In this document: one piece after another, positions 48,508-61,980 of the stretch
How the letters are laid out: each line of letters begins with the position of its first letter
Numbering within the stretch: the stretch's first letter is position 1
Source: Succinivibrionaceae bacterium
GTDB taxonomy: Bacteria; Pseudomonadota; Gammaproteobacteria; Enterobacterales; Succinivibrionaceae
DNA: 64,000 bases
NCBI GenBank assembly: GCA_016284235.1
Contig: JAEEOK010000091.1
Location: forward strand, 1-64,000
Direction: 5' to 3'
Translations under genes and position numbers: made by a program
Notes under the pieces: generated by a model
Told to the model about the DNA's origin: nothing
The model's database searches: none
What the model saw: the letters and a program-made list of their open reading frames with translations, nothing else

Positions 48508-48629
48508 ACAAATCAAACTATTTTTCAAAAATGCAATTAATTTCAAAAAAACGTACTGCCTATATGATTTCAAAAAAGAATAAAGGTAGAATTAGGGAAT
48601 CTAAAAAACTCTCTTGATTAAGGAATCTT

Positions 48630-49718
48630 ATGACAGCACAAATCGAGCCCACAAGTCGCAGCATTATCCTGAACGCAGCGCATGAAGTAACGTCCGAAGT
48701 TACAGCAAGGCTTGTGAACAATGATCTGGACACTCTGTTTCTGAATTATGATTTGGAACCGACTCAGTTCGTGGATAATCAAACCCAGTCGAACAGTCCG
48801 TTCTTCGGTCTTGGATTTCACCACGTAAATTTCAGAATAGTACTGGGCCCTACTGTTACAAAGCTTTTCGGTATGTTCCAGCAATGCACAGCACTTGAAG
48901 ATCTGCCTTCATTCAATACAGACAAGATCACCGACTTCAGAAATATGTTTAAGGACTGTTCTTCACTAAAAAGAGCACCAAAACTTGACGGTACATCAGC
49001 TATTAACATGCAGTCAATGTTTCATGGTTGCCAGGTTCTGACGGAAGTTCCAAAAATGAACACTCCTAAGGCTGCTGTAATGCAGGAGATGTTTGCCGGA
49101 TGCTACAGTCTAACTTCATTTGCCCTGCAGGACAGCTCGCAGGTCAAAAATATGCAGGGTATGTTTAACGGCTGTGCCGCAATCAAGCAGATAAAAAACC
49201 TGCAGATGAACAGTGTGACCACTGCACAGAATATGTTCCACGGCTGCATAGCTTTAGAGGAGGTAGGCGACTTAGATACTGAAAACGTCACCAATATGCA
49301 GGAAATGTTCAGAGGCTGCCGCAATCTGAAAACCCTGGGAGAGCTGAACACAGAAAACGTGACAAATATGAACGGAATGTTCTTCGGTTGCATGGAACTG
49401 ACAACTGCTCCGCTTTTTGATACATCTTCCGTTGAAACCATGAGTTCCATGTTTGAGAACTGCCGTAATCTATCCTTTGTACCTCTCTACGACACCATAA
49501 ATGTAACATCAATGGAATCAATGTTTAACGGATGCTTTCACCTGACTTCAGTTCCTTTTTTTGACACCCGCAACGTAACCAACATGCAGCAGATGTTTGA
49601 AGGATGCTCCAACCTTGCAACCGTACCCCACTTTAACACCGCAAGTCTGAAAAAATCCCAGGATATGTTCAGAGGTTGTCTGAAGCTGTCATCAATGCCT
49701 GCCTACTATGAAAGATAG
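48630..49718 (+). CDS. BspA-like / DUF285 repeat protein
   Basis: Repeats of the form LNTENVTNMNGMFFGCMELTTAPLFDTSSVETMSSMFENC. Confidence 0.93.
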   Translation: MTAQIEPTSRSIILNAAHEVTSEVTARLVNNDLDTLFLNYDLEPTQFVDNQTQSNSPFFGLGFHHVNFRIVLGPTVTKLFGMFQQCTALEDLPSFNTDKITDFRNMFKDCSSLKRAPKLDGTSAINMQSMFHGCQVLTEVPKMNTPKAAVMQEMFAGCYSLTSFALQDSSQVKNMQGMFNGCAAIKQIKNLQMNSVTTAQNMFHGCIALEEVGDLDTENVTNMQEMFRGCRNLKTLGELNTENVTNMNGMFFGCMELTTAPLFDTSSVETMSSMFENCRNLSFVPLYDTINVTSMESMFNGCFHLTSVPFFDTRNVTNMQQMFEGCSNLATVPHFNTASLKKSQDMFRGCLKLSSMPAYYER

Positions 49719-50488: not shown

Positions 50489-51319
50489 TCATTTCCCCTT
50501 CGGCTGAAACAACATCAGTTGCTCCATATAACTTGTATAGGTTTTAAGTTCAGCCCGGTACTGCTCCATTTCCTTTCGGCAAGATGCAAATGAATCCTTA
50601 TCTTCCTTTCCATCCTGGAGATCTGAATCATTATTTACAAGTTTCATGTTGAATACCTGCATATCCTCAACAGGACCGTCAAATTTTATCTGCCCCATGT
50701 TATATCTGATATTGCATGTAAATTTGCCTATACCACCGCTTGGAACTGAAACAGGAGTAAAACACCGAACAAAATTAGCTCCGTCATATTTTCTCTCATA
50801 ATCAGGAGCTCCAAAAATTTCAATATCAAGATCAAACTGAAGAGCCGGGATTGTATAATTTGAACCATTAAACAAATCAAAGGAGAGTTCAACTCTGTTT
50901 TCCGGATCTATGGAACTGTTCTTCAGACGTTTGTTTCTGAATTCCAGTCCGTTTTCATAACTTTTGTAGCAAGCAGCAGAGGTCTGCATCGCCTTTGATG
51001 TGTCATTGACCTTTTCCTCGACCCATTTTTTGCAATCATCAACCAGCTGATCGACAGTTTTTCCGGAAAATATTTTGATGCGCATCTGATCCCTACTTGC
51101 AGTATCGGGAATTTCATTTATCTTTTCTCGAGCTTTATGAAATGCAAGATCAAAGGCTGTTCCATTTCTTTCAGAAAGTCCATTCTTCAGCTCTATATAT
51201 GATTTCATTAAAGCTTCATCACTTGATCCGTCAAGAACCGGATCTCCACAACCTGTCAGACTCATAGAAAGAGCCAAAAAGATTCCACAAGAGCGAATAT
51301 TCGACATGAAGTATTTCAT
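50489..51319 (-). CDS. Hypothetical lipoprotein
   Basis: Lipobox-like LSMSLTGCGDP after a hydrophobic signal. Confidence 0.75.
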   Translation of the reverse strand: MKYFMSNIRSCGIFLALSMSLTGCGDPVLDGSSDEALMKSYIELKNGLSERNGTAFDLAFHKAREKINEIPDTASRDQMRIKIFSGKTVDQLVDDCKKWVEEKVNDTSKAMQTSAACYKSYENGLEFRNKRLKNSSIDPENRVELSFDLFNGSNYTIPALQFDLDIEIFGAPDYERKYDGANFVRCFTPVSVPSGGIGKFTCNIRYNMGQIKFDGPVEDMQVFNMKLVNNDSDLQDGKEDKDSFASCRKEMEQYRAELKTYTSYMEQLMLFQPKGK

Positions 51320-51404
51320 AAAACAACCAAACTAAAAATACAAATTATACGAGGATACAAACACCCTCTATATCATAACAACACAAAAAAATAATTATTA
51401 GGCT

Positions 51405-52310
51405 ATGCTGACACTCTAACGACTGAAGCCGAAGGATTCATGCTTCAAAGAACGATGCACAGCGAACTGCGTCTTACACGATCTCCTTGATAATTGCTTA
51501 CTCCTGCTTTTCACGGCAGGCTTATATTTCCGTATACCCCTCGGTATGTCAGTTCAGTCTTCAGACAAACCTTTATTCAGGATATTCACACCGGTATTCA
51601 TATCTGTTACGGCCTGTCTTCCCCTTTTTGCATAACTCACTTTCTGATTGCCGGACCTTTGTTACAGACAAGGCATGAACATCCGGGAGTTTGCTGATAA
51701 ACTGCTGCGGCGATTCATTCGGATATGCTCGAAATATTACGCCTTTATTCATACTGATAGCATCGGTCTTTTTTTGTATCTACGTAACTTTCTATCGTTT
51801 CAGAACTGACACCGCCCGCTGTACTTATAAAACATTTATGAGTCCTAAGAGCCGGCATTGCTCTAAACTGAAGGAATGCTTCTCTTAACGCCAATCAACA
51901 ATGATGAGCAACCTTTGATTAATCTGCCTCATTATATTTGGGATACTCACGGCAGGCGTACACTTACATAAATATGTACATGATCAATATTACATCCGAG
52001 AGCAGGAATTTAAATACCCTGTTTACTGAATTCAATGTCAGTAAGCTCTTTACCCTGTATTCAACCTGCAATGATGAATATTTTTCTGCGGTTTCCCGGA
52101 AAACACAAAATGACAGTTAACCAACAATGCTATTGTATGTATTGGTATGCCCTTACTCATTTTTCATGAATATATACTATCATATTTGCTGTGTTAGTCT
52201 ACACTTTATCTGCACACTGAAAAAACAACAGCCACTCCTGCGGTTAAAACCGCGTGTTTCACGCCTGCAGGGATTACAAAAAGATAACCTCATTTCCTGC
52301 AGAAATACTA
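51405..52310 (-). pseudogene. Decayed IS200/IS605-family element (TnpA and TnpB-tail remnants)
   Basis: Minus-strand fragments IDHVHIYVS, RLIKGCSSL, AMPALRTHKCFISTAGGVSSETIESYVDTKKDRC (TnpA-like) and DMNTGVNILNKGLSE (TnpB C-terminus-like), with stops and frameshifts. Confidence 0.65.
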
Positions 52311-53187
52311 CAGTTTGCCATCATGATTTTTGGTGAATGAAGTTTTATTCAAATCAAGAATTGGTTTATACGGCGGATCAGAATAGTCCCCCGTTGAAGA
52401 ACTGTTTTCCGTAATTACAACTGTCTGATCTTTAAAAACAGGAAAACTCTCAAGGCTGTCGCAACCGTTGAATGCTCCGTTTATGTGCTTAATCCCGTTA
52501 AAATTAAAATCAGGAAGTCTGCGCAAAGATCTGCAGCCTTCGAACATTCCACAGAGATTTAAAACTCTTGATGTATCAAAATACGGTATTTTTTCCAGTA
52601 GACTGCAGCCGGAAAACATTCTGTCAACTACGCTGATTTTACGGGAATTGCAGATCTCACATACGGTAAGTGCCGAACAGTTCTTAAATAATGCTGCAGC
52701 AGTCTCAAGTTCAGGAACATTAAAGAACATTGCCTGTTTGAGACTGACACAGTTCATAAACACCCCGTCGGCATACGCAACCTTCGGTATGTTATAAAAA
52801 ACAGCACGTTCAAGGGATGTACAGTTGCTGAACATAAACTGTATATTTTCAGCATCCTGCATACCTACAAGGTTTGCTTCTGCCAGCGAGGTGCATCCGT
52901 CAAATGTTTTAGTAAAAATCTTAACTCTGGATGTATCAAGTTCCGGAAGTTCTTTCAGTGCGGAGCAGTTCTGAAACATTCCCTCAACATTAAATGTCAT
53001 TGAAGTATTAAACCGGGGGATCCTGCAAAGACTGACACAGTCGGCAAACATATAATCCATGGATACAACATTTTCCGTGTTGAAGTCTGGAACGTGCTGC
53101 AGTTTCCTGCACCCTTTAAACATTTCAGATGTAGATTTAACCTTTGAAATGTCAAAAAGTGAAACATTTCTGAGATTTTCACAATTA
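52308..53187 (-). pseudogene. 3' part of a DUF285 gene interrupted by the transposon
   Basis: FFNCENLRNVSLFDISKVKSTSEMFKGC...; rejoins in frame with 58673-60102. Confidence 0.93.
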
Positions 53188-53195
53188 AAAAACAA
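53188..53195. repeat. 8-bp target-site duplication, left copy
   Basis: AAAAACAA, identical to 58673-58680. Confidence 0.93.
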
Positions 53196-53232
53196 GGCTC
53201 TGTTCTGGAAAAGTGTTGATGCCGAAAAGTGA
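53196..53232 (+). repeat. Left terminal inverted repeat
   Basis: GGCTCTGTTCTGGAAAAGTGTTGATGCCGAAAAGTGA, the exact reverse complement of 58636-58672. Confidence 0.96.
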
Positions 53233-53257
53233 ACACGGTATCTATGACATAAAAAGT

Positions 53258-53310
53258 CCTCTCAAATTTTGATGCTCCATGTTTGATGTCATGTTTCAAG
53301 ATTTGAGAGG
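53258..53310. repeat. Hairpin in the left subterminal region of the transposon
   Basis: CCTCTCAAAT (53258-53267) and ATTTGAGAGG (53301-53310). Confidence 0.7.
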
Positions 53311-53465
53311 ATGTTAAATTTTATCAATATCACATAAGTTATCATTGTCATGATTTCTATCATTCTTTAATCAATCTAACATAATTATCAGATTTCAATT
53401 GAAGTATATTGTTCACAAATGTATCATTTGTATATTGTATAAATAGTGATACGTAATTCTAAATA

Positions 53466-56400
53466 TTGAGATATGCTATGACAGATAAAGATTATATTAA
53501 AAACCTTTTAGTGATAATGGGTTTGGCTAAAAATAATGTGTTACCAAATAATGAAAATCAATATGATATTCAACATGAAATATATGAAGATGCTATTAAT
53601 AATTATAAGATAAGGGTTAATCTTACAGATGAGGAAATAGATTATCCAAATGATATTAACGGTTGGGAACGTAATAACAATTTTAATCAACCAGAAAATT
53701 TTGTGGTTTTAGAATGTGTTCACAGATTGTTAAAAAAGGGTTATAGAGCAACTGATATTGAATTAGAAAAAGAATGGCACTTAGGGCATGATTCTAAAAG
53801 TGGAAGATGCGATATAATTGTTTACGAACCTATTCATTCTGAAAATAATCAAGAAACAAAAAAAGTTTTATGCATTATTGAATGCAAAACATTTGGAAAT
53901 GAATTTAATAAAGAATTAAATAATTTAAAAAATGATGGAGGTCAGTTATTTTCTTATTTACAACAAGAAAGATCATGTAAATGGCTAATTCTTTATGCAT
54001 CAAAATATGATGATACAGATAAAGAAATGAAATATCAAATAGCCACAATTAAATCAACTGATGACCAAAATTTGATATTATTATCAGAAAATAATAAAAA
54101 ATCAGATAAAAATTCAGATATAAAATTATATATAAATGCTGAAACAACAGATGGTTTATTTAATGTTTGGAAAAATACATATGATGGTCAAATTTTAGGT
54201 GATGTGATCTTCTGTCAAGATACTAAAGCATATGAAATAGGTATTAAACCTTTATTAAAACGTGAACTTAAAGATTTTGATGATTCCGGGAAAATTATTA
54301 ATGGATTTGAAGAAATATTAAGACATAATAATGTTTCTGATAAAGAAAATGCTTTTAATCGTTTAATTGCATTATTTATTTGTAAATTAGTTGATGAAAT
54401 AACGAAAACCGATGATGATGTAGTCGAGTTTCAGTATAAGGTTGGAACTGATACATATGAAACATTGCAAGATAGACTTCAAAGACTTCATAAAGAAGGT
54501 ATGGATAAATTTATGAAGGAAGAAATTCTTTATATATCAGATGATTATCCTGATAACATAATTCAGCAGTATACAAATAAATCTAATCGGGATGAATTGA
54601 TAAAAGATTTAAAACAAACTATAAGAATTTTAAAATTTTATACTAATAATGATTTTGCTTTTAAAGATGTGCATAATAAAGAATTATTCTATCAAAATGG
54701 TAAACTATTAGTTGAAGTTATTGAATTATTTCAAAATTATAAAATTATTGGTTCCAATAAACTTCAATTATTGGGTGATTTATTTGAAAAATTGTTAGAT
54801 AAAGGTTTTAAACAGAATGAGGGACAATTTTTTACTCCAACTCCAATAACAAGATTTATTTGGAAATCATTACCATTAGATAAAATTATTTTTGAGAATG
54901 GAAAGCATAAATACCCTAAAATTATTGATTATGCCTGCGGAGCAGGACATTTCTTAACTGAAGGTATTGAAGAAATAAAACAATTACTAACTAAAAAAAA
55001 TATAAAAGAAGAGAATTGGTATAAAGATAATATCTACGGTATAGAAAAAGATTATCGATTATCTAGAGTATCTAAGGTGTCTATGTATATGCATGGTGCT
55101 GGTGATTCAAATATTATTTTTGGTGATGGATTAGAAAATGATAAAGGTGTTGAAAATAATTTATTTGATATTTTAGTTGCTAATCCTCCTTATTCAGTTA
55201 AAGGATTTAAACCACATTTGAATCTGAAAAATAATAAACTTGATATTATTGACTATATTTCAAATGATGGCTCTGAAATCGAAGTTTGTTTTGTTGAACG
55301 TATATCTCAATTATTAAAACCAAAAGGAATCGCATCTGTAATTTTACCAAGTTCATTACTGTCAAATATTAGTAACAGTTATGTCAAAGCAAGAGAGATA
55401 ATTCTGAAGAATTTTTACATACGAGGAATAACTTCATTTGGAAATTTAACTTTTGGTGCTACTGGTACAAATACAGTAGTTTTATTTCTAGAAAAATTTA
55501 ATGAACCTCCTAAAAAGATGTATTTACATAAAGATAGTGTAAATGCAATTTTTAATAATGAAAACTTAGATGAATGGGAAGATAAAGAAATTTTAACTAA
55601 TTATCTTAATCAAATTGATGTTGATATTGATTTTTATAAATCGTTTATTTCACAGAAATTGTTATTGTCTAAACTAAAGAGAAATAAACATTTTAGTATA
55701 TATGTTCAATCTTATGGGAATTCATCTGATGTTGTAAAATTATTAAATTCAAAATCTTATAAAAAGTTAAATAAAAAAGAACAATATGCTAAATATTTGG
55801 AGAATCTTTATAAATACATATCTCCTATTGAAAGGGAGAAGGTTTTTTACTTTTCTTTAATATATAAACAAAAAACTATAATTGTTAAATCACCAACTGA
55901 TAATAAACCTCAACAGGAATTTTTAGGTTATAAATGGTCAAACAGAAAAGGTGCTGAAGGAATACAAATTATAAAAATGGGTGGAAAACTGTTTGATCCT
56001 GCACATAATGATTATGCATCTGATTATATCAGAAATTCTTTTAATTCTGATTATCTCCCTGATTCAGAATATTCTAAATGTGTAAACACAAAGAATATGA
56101 TTGATTTTTCCAGAGATACGTTTAATAAAGAATTTAATTTATCAAATAACAAGAGTACTAATATTTTTTCTAAATATCTAAAAGTTGAATTAAATACTGT
56201 TGCAAGTTTAAAGGGTGGTGATAATTTTGATCCTAATTATCAAGGTAATACAAATAACACTTATATTCCATTTTATAAAGTAGGAGATATGAATATATCT
56301 GGTAATGAATATTGGATGAATAATGCTAGTAATTATGTCGATTTTAATACATTAACAAATATATTAAAAGCAACAATATTTGATGTTAATACAATAATAT

Positions 56401-57290
56401 TTCCTAAAGTTGGAATGGCAATACATACTAACAAAAAAAGAATTTTGTCTAGACAATCTGCAATAGACAATAATACTATGGCAGTTTGGTCAAAAGATAA
56501 TAAAATACTTTTACCTTTGTATTTGTATGAGTATCTCGTTAATTTTGTTGAATTAAAAAATTATTCATCTGAATCAAACCCTCCATCAATATCGCAATCT
56601 AACTTTGGAAAATTATTAATTCCTCTACCACCATTACAAATTCAGCAACAAATAGTTGCAGATTGTAATAAAATTGAAAACAATTTTAAAAAAATTAAAA
56701 ATAAAATTAATAAATGCAATCGTATTATTGAAAAAATATTTAAACTTTTAGACAAACATTCTTCTCAAGGGCAATTATACAGATTAGATAATAATACTTA
56801 TTTTGACCTTTCCATAGGTAAGAGAGTATTAAATAAACAATTGGTTCAAAATGCTAATATACCTGTTTACAGTGCTAACGTAAAAGAACCTTTTGGATAT
56901 ATTAATCAATTATTATCTAATTTAACAAATTTTACTACTCCATCAATTTTATGGGGTATTGATGGGGATTGGATGACTAATTATATTCCTGCAAATTTAA
57001 AATTTTACCCTACAGATCATTGTGGTGTTTTAAGATGTAATACACCAAATATCAACCCATATTATCTTTGTCATATACTTGAAACTGAGGGTACAAAATT
57101 GGGATTCAGTCGTAGTTTAAGAGCATCATTAGATAGAGTTAAAAATATAACTTTTAAAGTATGTTCACGAAAATATCAAGATAAGATGATTGCTAGAATT
57201 GAAATTTTAAATCAAATGATTTTACAATTATCTAATTCTTTAAAATCATACGATCAGCAAATTAAAAAAGTTTTAGAAAAGTATTTATAA
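53466..57290 (+). CDS. Single-chain restriction-methylation-specificity protein (Type IIG / fused Type I-like)
   Basis: N-terminal nuclease-like RCDIIVYEP...VLCIIECKT; N6-MTase motifs GQFFTPTPITRFIW, DYACGAGHFL, NPPY; two C-terminal specificity-like domains ending LIPLPPLQIQQQIVADCNKIE and a second half. Confidence 0.9.
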   Translation: MRYAMTDKDYIKNLLVIMGLAKNNVLPNNENQYDIQHEIYEDAINNYKIRVNLTDEEIDYPNDINGWERNNNFNQPENFVVLECVHRLLKKGYRATDIELEKEWHLGHDSKSGRCDIIVYEPIHSENNQETKKVLCIIECKTFGNEFNKELNNLKNDGGQLFSYLQQERSCKWLILYASKYDDTDKEMKYQIATIKSTDDQNLILLSENNKKSDKNSDIKLYINAETTDGLFNVWKNTYDGQILGDVIFCQDTKAYEIGIKPLLKRELKDFDDSGKIINGFEEILRHNNVSDKENAFNRLIALFICKLVDEITKTDDDVVEFQYKVGTDTYETLQDRLQRLHKEGMDKFMKEEILYISDDYPDNIIQQYTNKSNRDELIKDLKQTIRILKFYTNNDFAFKDVHNKELFYQNGKLLVEVIELFQNYKIIGSNKLQLLGDLFEKLLDKGFKQNEGQFFTPTPITRFIWKSLPLDKIIFENGKHKYPKIIDYACGAGHFLTEGIEEIKQLLTKKNIKEENWYKDNIYGIEKDYRLSRVSKVSMYMHGAGDSNIIFGDGLENDKGVENNLFDILVANPPYSVKGFKPHLNLKNNKLDIIDYISNDGSEIEVCFVERISQLLKPKGIASVILPSSLLSNISNSYVKAREIILKNFYIRGITSFGNLTFGATGTNTVVLFLEKFNEPPKKMYLHKDSVNAIFNNENLDEWEDKEILTNYLNQIDVDIDFYKSFISQKLLLSKLKRNKHFSIYVQSYGNSSDVVKLLNSKSYKKLNKKEQYAKYLENLYKYISPIEREKVFYFSLIYKQKTIIVKSPTDNKPQQEFLGYKWSNRKGAEGIQIIKMGGKLFDPAHNDYASDYIRNSFNSDYLPDSEYSKCVNTKNMIDFSRDTFNKEFNLSNNKSTNIFSKYLKVELNTVASLKGGDNFDPNYQGNTNNTYIPFYKVGDMNISGNEYWMNNASNYVDFNTLTNILKATIFDVNTIIFPKVGMAIHTNKKRILSRQSAIDNNTMAVWSKDNKILLPLYLYEYLVNFVELKNYSSESNPPSISQSNFGKLLIPLPPLQIQQQIVADCNKIENNFKKIKNKINKCNRIIEKIFKLLDKHSSQGQLYRLDNNTYFDLSIGKRVLNKQLVQNANIPVYSANVKEPFGYINQLLSNLTNFTTPSILWGIDGDWMTNYIPANLKFYPTDHCGVLRCNTPNINPYYLCHILETEGTKLGFSRSLRASLDRVKNITFKVCSRKYQDKMIARIEILNQMILQLSNSLKSYDQQIKKVLEKYL

Positions 57291-57335
57291 TTAAACTTAT
57301 ATTTTGATACAATATAAACAACTATTTTGGTTCGT

Positions 57336-58394
57336 TTATACTGGAATCGCATCTCTCAAATTCACTTTATACCCTCTGGAATTGCAGAGGGTAGAACATA
57401 CAAACTCTTTAAGAATCTTTGCTTTTTCAATTATTGATTCTTTAGCGATATTAATAAAGTTGTGGTATACCACATAGTTGTTAAGATATTTGGTAGCCAC
57501 ACCTTTGAAAAGGTCGTTAATCATGCGTTTTAACTCGCTATGATAACTATTTATCTTTTGGATATTAAACATTCCGTTCTTATGTTTACCGTTTTCAATC
57601 TTAATATGAGTCAGATTGTTGTCTTCTGCAATCTGATCATAACTGTTTAAACTGTCAGTGACAAAGAATGAACCTTCTTCAATCCTACCTTTAATAAATC
57701 CTGATAATTCATCAGTAGTAGGTCTGCCCAGATTAGTTATTTTACCGATAGAAAGACCATCAAGATTAACTGAACATGGAACACAGACTAATTCATCTGA
57801 TATACCTCTAACGTGGTTAGAGCCACCTCTTTTATGTGGTAATCTGGTGAGTATATCAGGGTTTTTACAGCCTTTAAAACTCAATCCAAAGTAGGTTTCA
57901 TCAGATTCAATAATACCATTCAGCACAACTTCGTTGTGCATATTCTGGAGAGCATCTAAAATCTTATGTCTCCAATCAAAAGATGAAGATTTAGAAATTC
58001 TGCAACAGGTTGCACACTGTCTAATGGTCATTTTATGCATCATACAGTCACAGTATTTTAACAGGGTATCATAAGATATTTTCATTCCATAGAGAATAGT
58101 ATTATTAGTCCATGTATAAGTATGTTTACAGTCTTTACATATGAATCTCTGTCTACCGTCTTTATGACCGTTTTTAACTACTCTATGAGATTGACAATGA
58201 GGGCAATATGGTCTGTCACCTAATGATGTTGCTTTCCTTTTAAGTATTAGTTCTTTGAATGATTTAATTGGATCCACAATAACAGTTTCAGGTTTTGAAC
58301 CAGTAAGAATCATCATGACTTCAGTCAGTTCATCAACATTAAGGTTTCTAAGCATTTCTACTATCGGCTTTAACTTCATTTTCATATCATTCAC
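57336..58394 (-). CDS. IS1595-family transposase
   Basis: Zinc ribbon CPHCQSHRVVKNGHKDGRQRFICKDCKHTYTWTNNTILYGMKI; catalytic-region motifs ESDETYFG, VTDSLNSY, NSYHSELKRMI. Confidence 0.95.
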   Translation of the reverse strand: MNDMKMKLKPIVEMLRNLNVDELTEVMMILTGSKPETVIVDPIKSFKELILKRKATSLGDRPYCPHCQSHRVVKNGHKDGRQRFICKDCKHTYTWTNNTILYGMKISYDTLLKYCDCMMHKMTIRQCATCCRISKSSSFDWRHKILDALQNMHNEVVLNGIIESDETYFGLSFKGCKNPDILTRLPHKRGGSNHVRGISDELVCVPCSVNLDGLSIGKITNLGRPTTDELSGFIKGRIEEGSFFVTDSLNSYDQIAEDNNLTHIKIENGKHKNGMFNIQKINSYHSELKRMINDLFKGVATKYLNNYVVYHNFINIAKESIIEKAKILKEFVCSTLCNSRGYKVNLRDAIPV

Positions 58395-58635
58395 CTTTAT
58401 ATTGTCTTCTATATATCATTATATTCAGCAAATATAAATAACATAGGAAATAATATGAATTGTTTATGAAATTATGATCTAAATCACCGACAGTTAGTGT
58501 CTTTTATGTCTAATTTGATTTGTTATGGAGTATTTATATAGATAATGTATATAAAATATCATGTGTGTAGAATACGTTGATAAATAATTAGTAACATGAC
58601 AAATTATATACATTTAATGATTATGACGGTTTATG

Positions 58636-58672
58636 TCACTTTTCGGCATCAACACTTTTCCAGAACAGAGCC
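58636..58672 (-). repeat. Right terminal inverted repeat
   Basis: TCACTTTTCGGCATCAACACTTTTCCAGAACAGAGCC. Confidence 0.96.
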
Positions 58673-60102
58673 AAAAACAAACCGGATAGGTTTCTCACCT
58701 CAGAAGAATTGCAGAGATTTACCATATCAAGAGTCCGGCACCCCGCAAACATCCTCGTTATATTCCTCGCCGACGAAAGATCAATTTCACCGGTATTTTC
58801 AATACTCTGGCAGTTCACGTACATTTCTGACAAATCAACCGCATCAGCAGTATTGAACATAGGGACGGATACCAGAGAGGAACATTCCGCAAAAAAACCG
58901 GAAAGATTCCTGCATCTCTGCAGATCTAAAGAAGGGACAAACTTTAGACTTTTACAGCCGAGAAACATATGATGCATATCAGTAATCTGATTGGTATCAA
59001 ACCATTTAACTGATTTCAGTTCTGAACAGTTGAGAAAAAGTCCTGCTGCAGAATGGCATCTCTGACCGAAGGTAATAGCAAAATCGACATGCAGAAAAAC
59101 ATGCCTCTGCCCAAAAGGAAAGAACACATCAGCATTATTCCGATGCTGTTTTCGGAATTCCAGTTCGTAATATGTCCCGACAAAAGGAGAATTTGAATAC
59201 CATGTATTGCCGATCCTTTTGCATACAACATCGTAGTTGATAACAACTTCCTTTAACTTTCCCTCTATGATTGCTATCTGAATTTCATCTGTAAGATCAA
59301 GAATGCTGTTCAGCACAACAACACCATCTTCGGGAACGTTTCTTTTAACATACTCGATTTTAACGCCATCCTCACGATCTATTCTTGCCGAACAGACCGT
59401 AAGAACAGGGGCATTGTCTTCAGTTATAGATGTATCGACAACAAAATCTTTGATGTAGCAGACGTTGCTCATTTTAAATTTCGGCAGAGAATGCAGATTT
59501 CTGCATTCTTTGAACATACCCTCTGCCGTAATAACATTTTCAAGAAACATATCAGGAATGCACTCAAGTGCGGTGCATCCATGAAACGTATAATTAGCAA
59601 AAAGAAGACTTGATGTATCCATATGAGGTACTATTCTGAGATTAGTACAGCCCTCAAACAGATAGCTCATATCCAGAACCATGGATGTATTGAATGCAGG
59701 AACTTCAGTAAGAGAACTGCAGCCTGCAAACAAACCTGCCATATTCTCCACTCTGGAGGTATCAAGAAGCGGAACCTCGGTCAATCCGGCACAGTATGCA
59801 AATGCATAATTCATACTGCATACATGTCCTGTATCGAATTCTGGCACGCTGATGAGATTGGCACACCAATAGAAAAGATAATCGATGCTGTGACAGTCCG
59901 GTCCTATGACTATAGTAAAATCTATACTTTCCATTTCCTCTGTCAGAGAATAAAACGGAGAATCATAAGAACCCTTAAGATCATAATTGATCACAAGTGT
60001 AAAATTTCTGAAACTGCTGTTGTACACAGCAATAAAATTACATACATCACCAGGTGAATTCAAAATCACGCAAAGATGATTATCCTTCGATTCAGTTTCC
60101 AC
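58673..60102 (-). pseudogene. 5' part of a DUF285 gene interrupted by the transposon
   Basis: METESKDNHLCVILNSPGDV...NLSGLF; its natural continuation is at 53187. Confidence 0.93.
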
Positions 60103-60609
60103 ACTCTATCCAACATTCGACTGCACAAAAAACTCTACAAAATCCGATGAAAAAAGGTTCTTTGCAAAAACCGGCTGGAAATATCCGGGATGATTTATTC
60201 CATATAAGCAGAACTCATCGACATGGAATAATTATTTGCTGGAGCTCAGAATTAACCCAGCTGCTGTCGCGCATCCTCTAACCTTTTGTGTCCGTATAGT
60301 TAACTGCGTTACCGCTGAAATGCAATTTCTGCTGGAAGGAACACTCCGAGCCGGAGTTCAATAGTCCGGTCAACGTCATTCCAAATGGAATTTGCAAAGA
60401 CCCTTTTATCTTGAACAAAACAATCTAATTGAGACGGAATTGTGATAGTATCATAACTCATAAATGTAGTTCCTTTGTTGTTTCTAAATCATTTTAAAAT
60501 TAATTTTTAAAATGGAATCACATTTTTTACCCGTAGATGAAGAGGGAACAGATCTACCGGGAACATGTGCTATCACTATTTCCAGTTTAATTTTGTAAAG
60601 AACAAAAAA

Positions 60610-61980
60610 ATGAACAAACAGATTATCCGCGATTTTTCATACGGTCATATGTACACCTGCATTATCAGGATTCTGACGGTATGCATTCTCTTGGTTCTTC
60701 CGATAAATTCCAAAGCCGGCATACAGAACAAATGCATTGACAATTCAAAAACAGGAAGTGATCTTTCAGTCCTTAGATACTGCCGTGCTGCTACTGAAAA
60801 CACCGCATTTCAGAATTCCGATGTATATTTTACCTACGCCGAAATACTGAAAAAATCAATAAACAGAATGCCTCCCAATCAGGAACTTGCCAAGAAATTT
60901 TACATAATGGCGGAACTTCATAATCCTGATAATTCAGGTGCATTCTTCAATCACGGTATTCTTCTTCTCCGCCAGCATAGGTACGAGGAGGCTTTGAATA
61001 TATTTCAGCATGCTGCTCAGCTGAATCATCCTGACGGAACATACCAGCTGGCAATGATGATATCAAAGGGAAGCGAAACACAGAAAAAGTCAAAGGAAGT
61101 ATTTGATTTGCTTCTTAAGGCGGCAATGCAGGGTGAACCCAGAGCGCAGGTTGCACTTCGAGATTACTACAGTTCAGGAACTCCTGAACTCAATCTGAAG
61201 GAAAGTTACTTCTGGGCTCTGGCAGCAAGCACCAACGGAGACTATCTTGCAAAATCAAACATTGAATCAAATGCAAGGAGACTGTCACAGCAGGAGCAGA
61301 TAAACCAGCAGAACAGACTGAAAGAATGGCTGGATTCCTTTGGAAACAATGAGGAAGAGTGCGTAAGACTGTACAGAATAAAAAGCATGAACGCAGCTTT
61401 CGGTTTCTGTATCAGAGCGGCAAGAAGCTCATCATCTCCGTTCATCCACGAAATAATTGGAGATCTCTATATGTCGGAAACTGCAGGAAACTCGCCAGAT
61501 ACTGCTCAGGCATCCCGCTGGTATGAAATATCAGCGTCAGAAGGCAATACCGCGGCAGCGTACAAAATAGGCACAATCTATGACCAGCAGGTCAGAGGTC
61601 TTTCCGCATCAGAGAGTCAGAAAAGAGCCTTTGAGTACTTCTCTATGTCGGCAAAAAACGACCATCAAAATGCAACACTTAAACTCGGCATCGCGTATGA
61701 ATTAGGTCGCGGCACACTAAAGAGCAGAAAAGAAGCAATAAACTGGTTTAAAAAATCTGCGCTGCTGGGAAATGAAGAGGCGGCATACAGGCTCGGATGT
61801 GCATTAAATACAGCAGGGGAATACGAAGAGTCAGTATTCTGGCTTTCTGTTGCAGACATATGGGGATACAGAACAGCATCCGCTGCTCTTAAATCAGTGC
61901 AGCGAAAACTCAGTTCGTCGAAGCTTAATGAAATTAAAGATAACGTCGATAAATTTATCTCTCGCGACCTCTCCGACTAG
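60610..61980 (+). CDS. Secreted Sel1 repeat protein
   Basis: Signal-like CIIRILTVCILLVLPINSKAG, then Sel1 units (AAYKIGTIYDQQVRGLSASESQKRAFEYFSMSA). Confidence 0.88.
   Translation: MNKQIIRDFSYGHMYTCIIRILTVCILLVLPINSKAGIQNKCIDNSKTGSDLSVLRYCRAATENTAFQNSDVYFTYAEILKKSINRMPPNQELAKKFYIMAELHNPDNSGAFFNHGILLLRQHRYEEALNIFQHAAQLNHPDGTYQLAMMISKGSETQKKSKEVFDLLLKAAMQGEPRAQVALRDYYSSGTPELNLKESYFWALAASTNGDYLAKSNIESNARRLSQQEQINQQNRLKEWLDSFGNNEEECVRLYRIKSMNAAFGFCIRAARSSSSPFIHEIIGDLYMSETAGNSPDTAQASRWYEISASEGNTAAAYKIGTIYDQQVRGLSASESQKRAFEYFSMSAKNDHQNATLKLGIAYELGRGTLKSRKEAINWFKKSALLGNEEAAYRLGCALNTAGEYEESVFWLSVADIWGYRTASAALKSVQRKLSSSKLNEIKDNVDKFISRDLSD

Follow-up and report, generated by a model that had tools for sequence, protein, structure and literature searches.

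In the 64,000-nucleotide stretch of Succinivibrionaceae DNA analyzed here (hereafter, the window), a single gene of the DUF285/PARCEL-repeat type has almost certainly been split by one transposition of a 5,477-bp transporter insertion sequence (IS) of the IS1595 family. Between its own ends, this element carries a single-chain type IIG restriction-modification (R-M) enzyme, and it falls within an IS1595 transposase clade in which most members have R-M systems, of various types, as cargo. The interruption of a gene is ordinary as such, a transporter IS is a known kind of element, and the travel of R-M systems on mobile elements is likewise known; what may be new is a compact, single-unit transposon lineage with different R-M systems. 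Judging from the sequences, this lineage looks like a vehicle for R-M systems.

The element occupies positions 53196..58672 and was also recovered by a scan for terminal inverted repeats (TIRs) combined with target-site duplications (TSDs). It has a G+C content of 26.7%, compared with 41.4% for the window. Its ends form a perfect 37-bp inverted repeat (GGCTCTGTTCTGG...), in which the left TIR (53196..53232, plus strand) and the right TIR (58636..58672, minus strand) match at 37/37 bases, far beyond what is expected by chance. Exact copies of the 8-bp TSD AAAAACAA lie immediately outside these ends, at 53188..53195 and 58673..58680. An 8-bp TSD with a 37-bp TIR is consistent with the ends of IS1595-family elements, and A/T-rich target duplications of 8 bp are reported for ISApl4 (PMC12561309).

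The element contains two genes that converge on one another. The first (57336..58394, minus strand) encodes a 352-residue DDE transposase with an N-terminal zinc ribbon, which matches PF12762 (E 8.5e-13), NF033547 (transpos_IS1595, E 1.7e-49) and NF050000, all above cut-off, as is required of the IS1595 (ISXO2-like) family. The second (53478..57290, plus strand) encodes the 1,270-residue passenger, of which residues 29-1270 match the PADLOC model PDLC03624 (REase_MTase_IIG) with an E value of 7.7e-283. In Pfam, N6_Mtase and Methylase_S score above cut-off and HSDR_N_2 scores just below it (24.3 versus 25 bits), and the protein has ECK and NPPY motifs. Nuclease, adenine methylase and target-recognition parts thus occur in one chain, which is the type IIG architecture. 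With an R-M gene between the TIRs of a single IS unit, the element is a transporter IS (tIS), a term used for a single IS unit with a passenger unrelated to transposition (PMC3129680, PMC5704250).

The transposase and the passenger are convergent and of unrelated origin, and on the Helicobacter pylori plasmid pY95 (see below) R-M genes occur on both sides of a related transposase, around which a TIR pair was not found. These observations are what might be expected if the R-M gene were a resident, beside which a transposase had inserted, and a TIR pair enclosed both by chance. We regard this scenario as extremely improbable, because the two 37-bp TIRs do not differ at any base and the exact TSD sits within a gene that three congeners carry intact; for the window, these uninterrupted orthologs refute it. 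We therefore conclude that the transposase and the R-M gene arrived as one unit.

The interrupted gene is encoded on the minus strand. Its 5' part (58673..60102) includes one TSD copy, and its 3' part (52308..53187) ends in the stop codon. Both halves match DUF285 (PF03382, E 3e-25 and 4e-27) and TIGR02167, the model for the PARCEL repeat, a 26-residue repeat of surface proteins. An earlier note on this DNA had claimed that excision of the element in silico restores one in-frame gene of 769 codons whose junction is a normal repeat unit, and this claim holds. When 53196-58672 and one copy of AAAAACAA are removed, 1,430 nt (60102-58673) and 880 nt (53187-52308) add up to 2,310 nt, a length divisible by 3, and the resulting ORF of 769 aa is open in both parts, with its stop codon at 52308. 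In this analysis, the halves were read separately and joined just over a short span at the junction, where the sequence is NLSGLFFNCENLRNVSLFD, a normal repeat. The start is a GTG at 60102, with an in-frame stop two codons before it. This GTG corresponds to the residue at which an ortholog in one congener (locus L036) starts, which supports the length of 769 aa.

The window lies on contig C74 of genome G000; our collection contains five genomes from this genus, G000 included. With the 3' half as query, orthologs were found in G004 (71%), G001 (52%) and G003 (42%). In these three congeners (loci L035, L036 and L037), the gene is one continuous ORF that aligns without a gap across the insertion point, where the sequence reads YLSGIFLNCENLKKVSVFD in G004, LLAGLFRGCESLERVECFD in G001 and RLSGIFRGCSALESVPLFD in G003. 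All three orthologs share one flank with the window, namely the genes at 48618-49715 (DUF285) and 50492-51331. The gene of the other flank (60541-61977) is present in G001 and G003; in G004, the contig breaks off within the ortholog. The empty site with an intact ORF that the earlier note predicted for relatives is therefore borne out between species, and the arrangement that would have spoken against it, two separate genes, was looked for at all three loci and does not occur there. We also observed that the flanking DUF285-type gene at 48618-49715, which lies on the strand opposite to the interrupted gene, is conserved at 76-87% in the three congeners, a higher level than that of the interrupted gene.

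The DUF285 gene family is large in the genus, and the host genome has many such repeat genes, some of them side by side. It is therefore conceivable that two neighboring paralogs flank an intergenic transposon and that their products, being repeat proteins, join in frame by coincidence. The probability of this is very small, since the exact 8-bp TSD lies within the coding frame of both halves and a single continuous ORF, with no gap at the site, occupies the equivalent place in three congeners; at the species level, the paralog explanation is refuted. Given the TSD, the TIRs, the frame and the uninterrupted syntenic orthologs, the ORFs 52308-53195 and 58636-60102 are to be annotated as one interrupted gene, as had been suggested, and the insert as a mobile defence gene and not a resident one.

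The host gene is presumably inactivated, with a 5' half that now stops 16 residues into the element. The earlier note suggested that the insertion is recent, and this is a reasonable inference because the TSD and TIRs are perfect and the frames are open: neither half of the gene, nor the transposase, nor the passenger has decayed. Frequent, precise natural excision is not expected of a DDE element.

From sequence, we infer both transposition and R-M activity for this element. The transposase would act on the 37-bp ends and insert the element at an 8-bp target rich in A/T. The passenger would methylate host DNA and cut incoming unmethylated DNA, and it would thereby aid the cell against phages and make loss of the element costly. 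A close relative of the passenger was not found in 57 genomes of Succinivibrionaceae, which, together with the low G+C content, suggests that it arrived horizontally and is foreign to the bacterial family. A search of 399 genomes of the phylum plus plasmids yielded partial matches and one relative at 40% identity (L189), beside which a transposase was not found. The closest relative, at 57%, resides on the viral contig IMGVR_UViG_3300007961_000135 (L190:6001-9742), and neither a TIR pair nor a transposase was found around it.

Other traces of the lineage are present in the host genome. Among the thirteen TIR-like ends that we inspected there, one belongs to a 480-bp right-end relic in which the start of the transposase is broken (G000:C126:31517-31996), and two belong to left-end relics of approximately 130 bp (G000:C3:33516-33647 and G000:C80:6349-6477). 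These relics are 89-95% identical to the ends of the element in the window. Several other TIR-like ends are the ends of elements whose first 25 bases are similar, and a second R-M copy was not found in the genome. The presence of relics of sister elements implies that the lineage visited this genome more than once.

To place the element among its relatives, transposases were gathered by transposase similarity, with cargo disregarded. The two closest full-length transposases in the same bacterial family belong to elements bounded by TIRs and TSDs that carry other R-M systems: one of 5,142 bp (L069, TSD AATCTCTT) has a type III pair, N6_N4_Mtase and ResIII, and one of 3,938 bp (L070, TSD TTTTTTTT) has a type IIG enzyme. 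A third clade element, of 4.4 kb (L191:7690-12127, on IMGVR_UViG_3300028886_000067), encodes a methylase and a specificity subunit. Its TIRs are identical over the 24 bases compared, its TSD agrees at 6/8 positions and its transposase frame is broken. The contig is viral, with T4-type baseplate, head and SbcCD-like genes, and the element lies between tail-fibre-like genes.

More distant hosts also carry such elements. ISCaje5 (L204), on a Campylobacter plasmid and with the TSD ATTAATTT, carries genes for a methyltransferase and a 188-aa protein together with an HTH gene. The 188-aa protein (L204:7859-8422), located beside the methyltransferase gene, has no Pfam or PADLOC match, but it contains a sequence, AIDAKYRIGSGDSG, that recalls a PD-(D/E)xK nuclease; the three genes may form a complete type II system. 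In the Neisseria gonorrhoeae chromosome NZ_CP119142.1, a bounded remnant of 2,654 bp (L210:3917-6570, TSD TTCTATTT) has a truncated transposase joined to a methylase that is also truncated, and a specificity subunit comes next. This remnant is possibly related to NgoAVIII, a BcgI-like system for which no methylated motif was reported (PMC6789123).

On pY95, an AlwI-type nuclease and a D12 methylase lie on either side of a clade transposase, and in a Helicobacter heilmannii prophage a broken transposase adjoins a methylase-nuclease. TIRs were not found around these two loci, which therefore count only as R-M genes beside a clade transposase. A locus in a congener (L225:8093-10445, in G003:C16) has a transposase fragment 66% identical to the transposase of the window, and this fragment converges with genes for a D12 methylase and a type II nuclease. 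The layout is that of the element in the window, but the R-M system is another one; TIRs were not found there. Another candidate, L151, was not counted as an R-M bearer, because the type I genes near this element lie beyond its TIRs.

A tree of 93 transposases took in the six bearers of R-M or methyltransferase genes known at that point. One branch (SH-aLRT 95) separates these six from all the others, and none of 500 label shuffles (0/500) gave a value as low as the observed R-M grouping. A smaller, careful tree, extended by the gonococcal copy and by two degraded ones of G003, supports the clade at 99/98. Clade hosts include gammaproteobacteria, Campylobacter, Helicobacter, the gonococcus and a T4-like phage contig, and the cargo includes type IIG, type III, type II and BcgI-like genes. 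The sister group is of the ISSag10/ISCco2 type, which adjoins lincosamide and other resistance genes.

Genes similar to the R-M genes of the clade were absent from 33 other bounded IS1595 elements, in a similarity scan with seven queries, of which six were R-M genes, that could miss a divergent R-M family in passengers outside the Pfam test. Among the passengers of these other elements, Pfam identified acetyltransferases and ankyrin proteins, for example. R-M cargo in 6/6 clade elements against 0/33 outside it corresponds to a Fisher p of ~3e-7, a value that ignores shared ancestry. One degraded clade member (G003:C28) has ~1 kb from the transposase to a right end, in which no R-M gene was seen; the cargo of another (G003:C40) is unreadable.

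One possible explanation, which we hold tentatively, is that a single IS1595 lineage is a dedicated R-M vehicle: the lineage would persist while unrelated cargo types (IIG, BcgI-like, III, and II with D12 or N6_N4 methylases) are exchanged in gammaproteobacteria, Campylobacterota, Neisseria and a T4-like phage, with the element favored through R-M addiction or through the methylation that its cargo provides. Selection may thus favor R-M cargo in this lineage, or the cargo may simply be passed on and swapped. Alternatively, such elements might capture any nearby gene, that of the window happening to be R-M, and the cargo of the clade would then be a coincidence of sampling. R-M genes are indeed frequent on mobile elements (PMC4176335), sister IS1595 elements carry passengers as varied as lnu(C), acetyltransferases and ankyrin proteins, the known loci number only about nine, and G003:C28 shows no R-M gene. 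Moreover, although the cargo overall comes from several unrelated families, L070, L191 and L210 have a related methylase in common, and not every case is therefore an independent capture. Against coincidence stand the supported clade that unites the R-M bearers, with its shuffle result, and the absence of R-M genes from the 33 bounded elements outside it; on balance, we consider coincidence unlikely. If the lineage does repeatedly carry different R-M systems, it would be a tangible means by which they spread, and one could then test whether a transposon persists better thanks to R-M addiction or methylation. The copy on the phage contig shows one way in which such a unit could travel.

Among matching titles and abstracts, none describes an IS1595 element with R-M or methyltransferase cargo, which is weak evidence of novelty. 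The nearest known element is ISCaje5, which resembles that of the window in its transposase clade (50% identity), in being bounded by TIRs and a TSD, and in having a site-specific DNA methyltransferase as passenger. However, it is 2,899 bp long, and in place of a single-chain type IIG enzyme it has an N6_N4-type methyltransferase with the HTH gene and the 188-aa protein. The transporter ISs ISSag10/MTnSag1 and tISCpe8, of which ISSag10 was compared here, share an IS1595 transposase (48% identical for ISSag10), a related TIR, an 8-bp TSD and a single passenger (PMC5704250), but their passenger confers antibiotic (lincosamide) resistance, they measure ~1.7 kb, and ISSag10-type transposases form the sister clade of the R-M bearers in our tree. 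For the passenger, the best solved relative is RM.BsaXI (8w0p, E 2.4e-27), a type IIG/IIB enzyme that likewise has its nuclease, methylase and specificity parts on a single chain, with a similar methylase domain and an alignment restricted to the methylase stretch 415-675. Finally, PluTI and Rle39BI, described as R-M systems in composite transposons (cited in PMC3031569), are also mobilized by insertion-sequence machinery. In those transposons, the R-M genes lie between a pair of IS copies, whereas the element in the window is a single unit that has one transposase and carries its R-M gene within its own ends.
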